Assembly: GCA_014377445.1 (NCBI GenBank)
Contig: JACMPP010000122.1
Location: 1-64,000, forward strand
Origin: Oligoflexus sp.
GTDB taxonomy: Bacteria; Bdellovibrionota_B; Oligoflexia; Oligoflexales; Oligoflexaceae
DNA length: 64,000 bases
Direction of reading: 5' to 3'
The notes under the pieces are model-generated. The model saw only the letters and a program-made list of their open reading frames with translations, made no database searches and had not been told where the DNA came from. Numbering within the stretch: the first letter of the stretch is position 1; each line of letters begins with the position of its first letter. The position numbers and the translations under genes were made by a program. Shown here piece by piece: positions 50,482-60,343 of the stretch.

Positions 50482-50956
50482 GGGACACCTTTTCCATCGG
50501 GTTGAAGCGGGATGATTATGCTTATTTTCATGCTTCAGTGCCAGTTTTTCCCGGAAATTGAGACAAAAAAAGGGGAGTTCAGATGAACTCGCCAGCTAAG
50601 TCTCGATTAATTCTGAGGTCAAACCTCAGTCAAAGGACTGGTGATAGAAGCGTTGCCAACAGAATTGATATCCTTTTGACCCATCAATTGAGCGACAGTC
50701 ACCAGGAGATGATTGAAGTCTACCGGTCCTGACTTTATACTTAAAGGCGCTTTGAGGCGCTCGTTTCAGTCCGGGACAAGGACAAAAGGCTTCAGCACCC
50801 TGGGTCACACTGACATTTGCATTTTGTGCGTGGGCCGGACTGGAAGCTGTAGTAATCCTAATGCTCGGAATATTGTGCTATGCTAAAAGAGATTAAGCCT
50901 GGGCCTGGCAAGGTTTAGGAGCTGAAACTCAGTACCTTTCGGAAAAGGAGCGACTG
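50482..50956. other. Promoter region of the REC-LpxC gene
   Basis: A divergent intergenic region of 475 bp without a supported gene. The 60-codon minus-strand frame near 50626-50808 lacks a good start. The last bases contain AAAAGGAGCG, a strong RBS for the next gene. Confidence 0.5.
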
Positions 50957-52288
50957 ATGATACGACAATCACCATCTCCGACCATCTTCGTCGTCGATGA
51001 TCAAGAATCGATATTAACCGCAGTTAAATCCGTATTGGGTGACGAATCCTATCGCATCCTCACTTTCAGCAGTGCCGAAGCACTTGAAGAAGGCCTTCGC
51101 AGTGAAAAAGCGGATCTTATTCTTCTCGATATCTGGCTGCCCGGCATCGACGGCGTCGAAGCCTTGAAGAAACTTAAAACGGAATTCCCTGATCTGCCGG
51201 TGATCCTCATGAGCGGTCATGCCGGAATTGATATTGCTGTGAAAGCGATGAAAGCCGGAGCTTCGGACTTTCTTGAAAAACCTCTGAACCTCGACATCCT
51301 GCTGGAGAAGGTTGCCGTGCATCTGCCGGTCACGGACAGCGCAGCACGCGCCACCCGTAGGTCTGTTCCCGAGCACCTGGCCAGCCTTATGAAAGGTGAA
51401 GCGGCGCGACTTGCCCCCTCGAGCGAACCTCAACGCACCGTCAGCAAAAATGCTGTCTTAAACGGCGTTGGACTCTTGAGTGGACGCCCCACGGGTGTGA
51501 TCATCAGCCCCGCGCCCGTCGACACCGGTATCATCTTCCGTACTCTCGATGGTGTGGCAATTCCCGGTCACATCACAGCTCTCGACAACTTTGATCGCCT
51601 GGGTGAGGGCAAAGCCTTTACTGCCAATTCCACTGTTTTGTCGAAAGGCGGCCGCCGGATTCGGACGGTTGAGCACCTGCTGGCCGCGCTGAACATGATG
51701 GGCATCACCAACGCATCGATCAAGGTCGATGAAGAAATTCCCAATATCGACGGATCAGCTGCTGACTTCTGTCGCATCATTGCCGCTGCGGGCATCGAGG
51801 TTCAGGACAAAACGCGCCTTGACATCGTCATTCACAAGAAGATTATTATCGGCAATGAAGACCAAGCCGAAAAGTATGTTTACGTCGAACCTTTCGATGG
51901 CTTCGAAGTCGTTATGCGCGTCGACTATCCCGCACCCATTCTCGAGCAAACCTTTCGCTTCTCGCCAGGCGAGCATTCGTTTGAGACGGATATCGCCACG
52001 GCACGCTCGTTCAACACCTTTGAAAATATCGATATTGCGCAGCAGAGAGGGATGGCCGGTTCCGGTTACCTCAACTCGCACATCATCATCCACGACGGCA
52101 AGGTCATCAACACCAAGCTTAATTTCCCGGATGAATTCGTTCGCCACAAAATCCTTGATCTCTTGGGCGATCTCTATCTCCTTGGGTACGGACTCCGGGG
52201 CCGCGTGGTAGGGAACATGACTTCGCATGGCCTCAACCAGTCTTTGGCCCTGAAGATTCACGAAGCGCTGTCGCGCGAACCATCCTGA
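50957..52288 (+). CDS. lpxC: Receiver domain fused to LpxC deacetylase
   Basis: 443 residues. Residues 1-122 are a fully equipped CheY-like receiver: acidic pair D14-D15, phosphoacceptor D58 in L-L-D-I-W-L-P-G, S86, K108 in L-E-K-P. After a roughly 40-residue linker, residues about 163-443 are LpxC, the committed lipid A enzyme that deacetylates UDP-3-O-acyl-GlcNAc. Zn ligands: H240 (E-H-L-L), H397 and D401 (H-K-I-L-D). H424 in S-H-G-L-N is the catalytic base's partner, E239 is conserved, and I-D-G-S-A is at 264-268. Normal LpxC has about 300 residues. Phosphorylation may control the enzyme. Confidence 0.95.
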   Translation: MIRQSPSPTIFVVDDQESILTAVKSVLGDESYRILTFSSAEALEEGLRSEKADLILLDIWLPGIDGVEALKKLKTEFPDLPVILMSGHAGIDIAVKAMKAGASDFLEKPLNLDILLEKVAVHLPVTDSAARATRRSVPEHLASLMKGEAARLAPSSEPQRTVSKNAVLNGVGLLSGRPTGVIISPAPVDTGIIFRTLDGVAIPGHITALDNFDRLGEGKAFTANSTVLSKGGRRIRTVEHLLAALNMMGITNASIKVDEEIPNIDGSAADFCRIIAAAGIEVQDKTRLDIVIHKKIIIGNEDQAEKYVYVEPFDGFEVVMRVDYPAPILEQTFRFSPGEHSFETDIATARSFNTFENIDIAQQRGMAGSGYLNSHIIIHDGKVINTKLNFPDEFVRHKILDLLGDLYLLGYGLRGRVVGNMTSHGLNQSLALKIHEALSREPS

Positions 52289-57961: not shown

Positions 57962-60343
57962 ATGTCCGCTAAGAAAGAAAAGCCTTCCAAAAACAAGCCT
58001 ACACAGGCGGAACGAGCAGCAAAGAAAGCGGCAAATGCACGCAAGGCTCGTGAGGAGGCGGTTCGACTCGAAGAAAAAAGACGTCTTGAAGACGATGTCT
58101 TCATCGAAACCTACACCCAGGCCCTCGCCGAAGGTCAAACAGCGGGAGCGCAGATCCTGCGCCTTCCGCCGATCTTCGCGGAAGACGATCGACCCGCCGC
58201 CATGTACGGCGCCTTCTATCAATCGATCGCCCTTATGCCGCCATTGGTTCGCAAGGCCTTTGAAAGCATGCACGAACGCTTTTTTCTCAAAATCAACGGT
58301 CTCTACGAAGTCCTCTCGATCGGCCGTCCGATCGAATTGCGCAAAGATCGCCAGAACGTTCTCGATAGCTCTCTCGCCGAATTTTGGAAATCCTATCCTC
58401 ATATTCGCAAGGCGCAGAGTCGTATCGCCAACACCTTAAAGCTCTACACACGCTTCAAGGAAGAATTCGCAGCGGCCAAGGAATTTGCCGGCAAGGCTCA
58501 GGAAGCTGCGGATAAGAGTGACGCCGACGAAAAAGAGAAGGAAAGCGCGCAACGCCGCGCGTCCGAACTCCGCTCTCTCGAACAGAATGCGGTCAATCAG
58601 GAGCATCATCTATCCCAGGCCTTTAAAGCCCTGGCTGGTGAACTCTCCGGTCTTTCCCGTCTGACGAAGAATACGGAAATGCTCATGACCGCGACCCTTC
58701 GCGGCTTCTATATCTCACGCGATCGCCGCTTCTCATCTTACGAGAGTGTGTTCGAAGGCGCTCACGCCCTCGGTCGTGAACACATCGCCGTCCTGGGCCC
58801 TACCAACTCCGGCAAGACCCATGAAGCGATGGAGGCCCTGAAGGCCGCAAAAAACGGCATTTACCTGGCTCCGCTTCGATTGCTCGCCCTCGAGAACTTC
58901 GAACGTCTCGCGGCGGCCGGACTCCCGGCCCGTCTGGAAACTGGCGAGGAAAGCCTGGGCGCCTCGCGTGAAAACGCGACTCACTATTCGATGACTGTTG
59001 AGAAGTGTCCTTACGATAAGGTCTTTGACGTTGCCGTCATCGATGAAGTCCAGATGCTGGCCGATCCCGATCGCGGCGCGAGCTGGACAGCCGCTATCCT
59101 CGGTATTCGGGCGAAGAAGATCTTTCTCCTCGGTTCCGCGGCTTCGTCGGATGTTTTGAAACGTCTGACTTCCCTGACCGGCGAAAATCTTAGCTTCGTC
59201 TTCAAAGAACGCCTTTCGCCTCTGCGCATGGAAACAAAGCCTATCCGTTCCTCGAAAGAACTGATGCGCGGCGATGCTCTGATTACGTTTAGCCGTGACG
59301 GTGTTTTGCGAACCAAAGAACTGCTGCATAAAAGCGGTTTAAAAGCTTCGGTCATCTACGGCGGGCTCTCGCCTGAAGTAAGACGCGCCGAAACTGAGAA
59401 ATTCCGTGCCGGCGAAACCGATATCGTGATCGCAACCGATGCGATCGGGATGGGGCTGAACTTACCGATTCGTCGTATCATCTTCATGGAAACCCAGAAG
59501 TACAACGGCGAAGGCATCGTCGATCTTTCACATTCCCAGTTCCTCCAGATCGCGGGCCGTGCGGGACGCTATGCGCTCACGAACGGTATCGCCACCGGCG
59601 AGGAAGGTGTGGCCGCCGTCATCGGCCAAGGCGACCTTGCCTATCTGCAGCGTGCCCTGTCCAAGGATATGAATCCTCTGAGTCTGGCGAGTCTCGTCGC
59701 CGAGCCTTTGATGCTGCACATCGATGTTCTCGCGGAAGAACTTAAAACGGATAATCTCGTCGATATTCTCGGTGCGTTTACCTATCGTTCTAACAACGAT
59801 AGTATTCGTCGCTACGTGTCGCCTTCGCTTTCGGAAGCGGCTCTTTGTCTGGAGGAATATCTGGTCGAGCTCAAGGAGGAAGGCACCTGCCGTTATCCAC
59901 CGAGCCTGGCCCATAAATTTTTCCTTTCGCGTCTCCCTTTGCGTTTGAACGAGGATTCGCATTACTTCTTCTTCCGCGCTTTGATTCGTTCTTTTGCCAA
60001 GACGAATATTCATTTGCGTCCTGAAGATGCATTCGAACATCTGGACAAGGTCGATCGTCTGGATCTGAAGACCTGTGAACTGGAACGTGGTCTCGTGACG
60101 GCTTACCTCCACTTGACCCTGGATGAGGAAGAGCGTGCTCACACCATATCTTTCCGTCAGGATCTGGACCGCCGTTCGGAATCACTCCTTTCCCAAGGCA
60201 AAGGCGCGAAAGAATCCGACAAAATCGCTTGGCCTTCGATCTGCGAGAAATGCGGTCGAAGCATGGGCAAGCCGATCAACTTTAAGATCTGCCGTCCTTG
60301 TTTTACCAACTCGCGCTACCGCGAAGATGATGGCGACTACTGA
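57962..60343 (+). CDS. Suv3-like ATP-dependent RNA helicase
   Basis: 793 residues. An N-terminal basic coiled-coil region (1-45) and a helical domain precede a helicase core. Walker A is G-P-T-N-S-G-K-T (279-286), and motif II is D-E-V-Q (361-364), the DExx version typical of the Suv3/mitochondrial degradosome helicases. Motifs V/VI include A-T-D-A-I-G-M-G-L-N and Q-I-A-G-R-A-G-R. A C-terminal zinc ribbon (C-x2-C...C-x2-C in the last 40 residues, I-C-E-K-C-G and I-C-R-P-C-F) is extra. Eukaryotic Suv3 works with PNPase or an exonuclease in RNA turnover; bacterial relatives are less studied. Confidence 0.9.
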   Translation: MSAKKEKPSKNKPTQAERAAKKAANARKAREEAVRLEEKRRLEDDVFIETYTQALAEGQTAGAQILRLPPIFAEDDRPAAMYGAFYQSIALMPPLVRKAFESMHERFFLKINGLYEVLSIGRPIELRKDRQNVLDSSLAEFWKSYPHIRKAQSRIANTLKLYTRFKEEFAAAKEFAGKAQEAADKSDADEKEKESAQRRASELRSLEQNAVNQEHHLSQAFKALAGELSGLSRLTKNTEMLMTATLRGFYISRDRRFSSYESVFEGAHALGREHIAVLGPTNSGKTHEAMEALKAAKNGIYLAPLRLLALENFERLAAAGLPARLETGEESLGASRENATHYSMTVEKCPYDKVFDVAVIDEVQMLADPDRGASWTAAILGIRAKKIFLLGSAASSDVLKRLTSLTGENLSFVFKERLSPLRMETKPIRSSKELMRGDALITFSRDGVLRTKELLHKSGLKASVIYGGLSPEVRRAETEKFRAGETDIVIATDAIGMGLNLPIRRIIFMETQKYNGEGIVDLSHSQFLQIAGRAGRYALTNGIATGEEGVAAVIGQGDLAYLQRALSKDMNPLSLASLVAEPLMLHIDVLAEELKTDNLVDILGAFTYRSNNDSIRRYVSPSLSEAALCLEEYLVELKEEGTCRYPPSLAHKFFLSRLPLRLNEDSHYFFFRALIRSFAKTNIHLRPEDAFEHLDKVDRLDLKTCELERGLVTAYLHLTLDEEERAHTISFRQDLDRRSESLLSQGKGAKESDKIAWPSICEKCGRSMGKPINFKICRPCFTNSRYREDDGDY

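Follow-up and report, generated by a model that had tools for sequence, protein, structure and literature searches.

A receiver domain fused to LpxC in two bacterial phyla suggests direct two-component control of lipid A synthesis

The 64,000-nucleotide stretch of Oligoflexus sp. DNA analysed here (the window; positions 1 to 64,000 of contig JACMPP010000122.1) contains a gene in which a response regulator receiver domain (REC) is joined to LpxC, the UDP-3-O-acyl-N-acetylglucosamine deacetylase of lipid A synthesis. This arrangement raises the question as to what a receiver may do on this enzyme. The described controls of LpxC are proteolysis by way of FtsH and LapB, with the E. coli degron for FtsH located in the C-terminal tail of the enzyme, and transcription by way of NtrYX in alphaproteobacteria. 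Response regulators with enzymatic outputs are known, for example those of the CheB and PleD type, in which REC is fused to an enzyme as it is here. We could not find LpxC described as the output of a response regulator, nor any REC-LpxC protein, in the open literature searched.

The gene is a single open reading frame of 443 codons with no internal stop. Its features are as follows:

50957..52288, plus strand: REC-LpxC fusion gene, 443 aa, monocistronic
50945..50950, plus strand: AAGGAG, Shine-Dalgarno-like, 6 bases 5' of the ATG
50984..51313, plus strand: REC domain, residues 10-119, with the acidic pair D14 D15, S86 and K108
51128..51130, plus strand: D58, predicted phospho-acceptor, invariant in 22/22 fusions
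51314..51430, plus strand: linker, residues 120-158, variable, with low model confidence at 127-137
51431..52258, plus strand: LpxC deacetylase domain, residues 159-434
51671..51676, plus strand: E239 H240, catalytic base and Zn ligand (E. coli E78 H79)
52145..52171, plus strand: H397 K398 D401 D405 (E. coli H238 K239 D242 D246)
52226..52228, plus strand: H424 (E. coli H265); the protein ends 19 residues further, without the usual LpxC C-terminal tail

The initial annotation had proposed a complete receiver (D14, D15, D58, S86, K108) joined to a complete LpxC (E239, H240, H397, D401, H424), and both halves of this proposal are borne out. All named residues are present, as are K398 and D405, so that the window protein holds the equivalents of the Zn ligands (H79, H238, D242) and of the catalytic residues E78, K239, D246 and H265. 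The E. coli sequence used for numbering agrees at 15/15 reference positions checked. Pfam detects Response_reg at residues 10-119 (E 4.5e-29) and LpxC (PF03331) at residues 159-434 (E 3.1e-69, 233.9 bits against a cut-off of 27), and no sigma-54 AAA+, Fis or FabZ domain. With the TIGR00325 lpxC equivalog model the protein reaches 195.7 bits, the curated cut-off being 187.25. An AlphaFold2 model built from 37 sequences consists of two well-predicted domains (mean pLDDT 86, pTM 0.68) connected by a stretch of low confidence at residues 127-137. The top matches of this model among solved structures are LpxC structures, and a phmmer search against PDB sequences returns LpxC and receiver chains. 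Fold and catalytic residues are common to REC-LpxC and the LpxC enzymes of E. coli, P. aeruginosa and A. aeolicus.

The gene stands alone between a Dus-family gene and a chemotaxis receptor gene, both encoded on the opposite strand. Promoter and terminator scans at the gene gave nothing clearly above chance level. When the upstream region was compared with relatives, the one match was to G002, 155 bp long and lying at the distal end of the sequence used as query; three other relatives gave none. At a distance from this gene the window also encodes a Suv3-type DExQ helicase (57962-60343, plus strand; PF22527, E 7e-48), a member of a family best known from mitochondria.

The possibility that similar fusions occur elsewhere, which the initial annotation had left room for, was followed up by a search that recovered 22 REC-LpxC proteins from two phyla, here called Oligoflexia-type and Nitrospirota-type. 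Some of the carriers are uncultured bacteria. Nine fusions other than that of the window occur in its genus (g1) and in g9, a genus that shares its order but belongs to a different family, with 71-91% identity over the aligned part; a search of 48 further genomes from the class found none. The Nitrospirota-type sample comprised 296 genomes from the phylum of a record labelled 'Nitrospirae bacterium'. Ten close fusions were found in it, with 59-62% identity over the LpxC portion, along with two more distant members at 39-41%, G352 and G275. Good sampling is confined to this phylum and the window's own group. Several other long LpxC frames that were considered as candidates turned out to be LpxC-FabZ fusions (G062, G064, G072) or to have no more than an open N-terminal frame (G211). 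LpxC-FabZ (PRK13188 type) is another natural LpxC fusion, in which FabZ is C-terminal and metabolic, whereas REC-LpxC has no C-terminal FabZ and, in the window, ends 19 residues past H424. Three such LpxC-FabZ genes (L133, L135, L137) lie in Omnitrophota and Hydrogenedentota MAGs. An lpxD-like gene is located upstream of the fusion in L133 and L137, and L133 also has an lpxA-like gene downstream.

The receiver signature (DD, D58, S86 and K108) is kept in 22/22 fusions, and the linker sequence is free to vary. The zinc and catalytic residues are kept in all fusions except that of G030, whose sole REC-LpxC carries an in-frame deletion of approximately residues 197-255 that removes the active-site E and H (L072, G030:C215, 3674/3675). 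This deletion may be an assembly fault or decay. For close pairs with unsaturated synonymous sites, dN/dS is 0.02-0.22 in REC and 0.01-0.11 in LpxC, values that place both domains under purifying selection; several further pairs are saturated in dS, and their values are indicative only. Since the same fused order recurs in 22 genomes of two phyla and selection acts on both domains, we can exclude that two genes were joined by chance or in assembly, and the earlier claim of one fused protein stands.

Next to the question of function stands that of origin. A maximum-likelihood tree built from 81 LpxC domains places every fused one in a single clade (support 100/98), and G352 and G275 make up one side of the first split within it. 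The ordinary Oligoflexia-type LpxC proteins form a separate clade (support 98/91). Because the fused domains lie in a clade of their own, the window protein does not derive from the LpxC of its host. The window fusion is 79% identical to that of G027, a member of g9; this value exceeds those for DnaK (73%) and NtrY (52%) between the same two genomes, and equals that between the fusions of the window and its congener G001 (80%). These identities fit horizontal transfer. The gene neighbourhoods of the fusion vary from carrier to carrier. In G012, a serine recombinase-like gene (506 aa) lies about 180 bp upstream of REC-LpxC (L067, G012:C30), possibly a trace of transfer by a mobile element. No plasmid-borne REC-LpxC was found in the plasmid collection.

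Does the fusion work as LpxC? G033, from the family of g9, and the window's family have ordinary lpxC in a conserved gene order that ends in dnaK. In 6/6 g9 genomes this order is intact, with the genes on either side kept and lpxC itself cleanly missing. These genomes, G030 among them, are 91-96% complete; the fusion is the only LpxC found, and LpxK is present. Judging from this gene content, REC-LpxC very probably fills the role of LpxC in g9. The fusion is also the only LpxC match in 5/10 close and 2/2 distant Nitrospirota-type carriers, for which genome completeness is not stated. The congeners G001-G003 have both the fusion and an ordinary lpxC. The genome of the window, at 82% completeness, yielded the fusion alone. 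A contig edge lies inside the gene that follows lpxC in the congeners (G000:C145; L102, position 33), which suggests that ordinary lpxC is present just past the end of this contig and unassembled, so that the window's genome probably resembles its congeners in this respect.

A candidate for the kinase emerged from the two distant fusions. The initial annotation had noted that no histidine kinase adjoins the gene, which holds for the window and fails for G352 and G275, where the kinase is encoded directly upstream. The gene order in both is a DUF4390 gene (Pfam), an NtrY-like kinase (735 aa) whose frame overlaps that of REC-LpxC, REC-LpxC itself, and folD (assigned by eye). The best response-regulator model for the REC of G275 is NtrX (127.7 bits; NtrC, 95), and the RECs of both proteins group with NtrX RECs (support 100/94). 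This grouping and the position behind ntrY indicate that REC-LpxC holds the ntrX slot in these genomes. It differs from NtrX in lacking the AAA+ sigma-54 and Fis domains, and its output is an enzyme instead of a transcription factor.

The RECs of the derived fusions, including that of the window, are weakly placed in the tree, with p-AU 0.235 for the fusions and NtrX as one clade, and are 43% identical to the nearest NtrX REC. In whole-genome receiver searches of G000, G012, G024 and G027, the other receivers score at most 78 bits against the window REC; the intact NtrX of G002 scores 94 bits. An NtrY match was found in 17/17 fusion genomes searched besides G352 and G275, at 298-328 bits in 16 and as a partial frame of 162 bits in G136.

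The state of ntrX in these genomes points in the same direction. An intact ntrX adjoins ntrY in 2/18 fusion genomes (G002 and G003) as opposed to 26/28 genomes without the fusion; correspondingly, the gene next to ntrY is absent or broken in 16/18 and 2/28. The contrast gives a Fisher p of 2e-8 if the genomes are treated as unrelated; since they are related, the independent ntrX events are far fewer than these counts. Carriers without ntrX beside ntrY include G001, five members of g9 and seven Nitrospirota-type genomes. The window's genome retains a pseudogene directly after ntrY (L203, G000:C92), with the start kept, the middle deleted to about codon 299, and a TAG where the protein of the congener G003 has Q. 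Two genomes have ntrY without ntrX behind it and no REC-LpxC: G015 (L240) and the Nitrospirota-type G114 (L233). The latter has downstream of this site the rhodanese-like gene common to the Nitrospirota-type fusion carriers, and ntrX loss may therefore have preceded the fusion in this group. Taken together, these observations argue for NtrY as the kinase acting on D58, most strongly for proteins of the G352/G275 type and less so for that of the window.

Could REC serve some end other than signalling? It is highly improbable that REC is a structural or dimerisation module. The absence of an adjoining kinase in the window's genome would agree with such a role, but the phosphorylation residues are kept without exception while the linker varies. 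We also regard as improbable, if somewhat less so, that the derived fusions are paralogues with another substrate or poor activity, and that the second gene is dispensable in the window's genus. This reading draws on four changes in the derived fusions, H19L, T191S, A215H and G264S, at sites conserved or nearly so in ordinary LpxC. At three of these sites the derived fusions have L, S and S, whereas the basal fusions and 53/53 ordinary LpxC proteins compared have H19, T191 and G264. It can also point to the ordinary lpxC of the congeners and to the broken copy in G030. On the other hand, none of H19, T191 and G264 is a Zn ligand, and T191S and G264S were tolerated in a saturation screen of E. 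coli LpxC, in which A215H is absent from the list of tolerated changes (PMC9842644). The paralogue interpretation is further opposed by the retention of zinc and catalytic residues, by purifying selection, and by the g9 genomes, which have LpxK and the fusion as their sole LpxC.

Two other alternatives carry more weight, although we consider each of them unlikely. One is that REC sets the lifetime of LpxC and not its catalysis, with phosphorylation exposing the protein to a protease or adaptor, or hiding it, in replacement of the lost degron. All fusions have short ends: the H265 equivalent is followed by 16-24 residues, whereas ordinary relatives have 25-55 at this place and the E. coli enzyme has 40. 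They thus lack the tail that carries the degron in E. coli. Because this tail is missing, control of stability is a serious rival. The receiver protein RssB provides a precedent for a role in proteolysis, as does the control of E. coli LpxC, which is itself proteolytic. Some LpxC proteins without the degron are degraded by Lon after expression in E. coli (PMC12444477). A protease signal was, however, not identified in the fusions, and LapB binding inhibits LpxC directly (PMC13333357), which makes control of activity equally plausible. The other alternative, of similar standing, is that one or more kinases other than NtrY serve the receiver, and that ntrX loss is a separate history. The window gene is an orphan, and the distance of the derived RECs from NtrX and their weak placement would fit this view, as would G002 and G003, which keep ntrX, and G114, which has lost it without gaining the fusion. 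Against it stand the position of both basal members in the ntrX slot behind ntrY and the fact that, in either phylum, ntrX tends to be absent where the fusion is present.

The explanation we favour, and hold to be probable, is that REC-LpxC is a response regulator in which LpxC, the deacetylase of the committed step in lipid A synthesis, is the output domain. A membrane kinase of the NtrY type, whose gene lies at another genomic site in the window's organism, would phosphorylate REC on D58, and the state of REC would set, in one direction or the other, the amount of LpxC activity in the cell. Through the flexible linker, the coupling may affect catalysis or access; it may instead affect protein stability. 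On the LpxC side the family would have arisen once, its basal form being an operon of ntrY and REC-LpxC with the latter in the slot of the transcription factor NtrX. Horizontal spread between the phyla and within the Oligoflexia-type order would have followed. The direct tuning of LpxC by a two-component signal that the initial annotation had suggested is thus retained as the best-supported reading of the sequence data, because the phosphorylation residues are invariant in 22/22 fusions, the basal gene takes the place of ntrX behind ntrY, and most carriers lack ntrX at this site. Its label of a phosphorelay fares less well: direct action of NtrY is likelier than a multi-step relay.

Documented alphaproteobacterial systems provide a close parallel. 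In Rhodobacter sphaeroides and Caulobacter, NtrYX represses lpxC transcription, so a link between this pathway and the enzyme already exists; in R. sphaeroides, no NtrX site was found upstream of lpxC (PMC7240162, PMC12444477). Sensor family and target enzyme are as in REC-LpxC. In contrast to these examples, in which control is exerted on the level of the lpxC transcript, REC-LpxC holds receiver and enzyme in one protein. Its sequence gives the impression that this sensor family is here connected to this target with the transcription step omitted. A broader statement strikes us as about evenly balanced between right and wrong: that NtrY and REC-LpxC make up a system for post-translational control of outer membrane synthesis by phosphorylation of LpxC, which replaced NtrX and, in several lineages, ordinary lpxC with its degron tail, and which spread between phyla as a single gene.

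Such a system would make the signal of NtrY testable, since the output is one measurable enzyme and not a large regulon. If the favoured reading is true, the receiver in LpxC connects a membrane sensor directly with the enzyme, and evolution has turned a path from sensor through transcription to enzyme into one that leads from sensor to enzyme.
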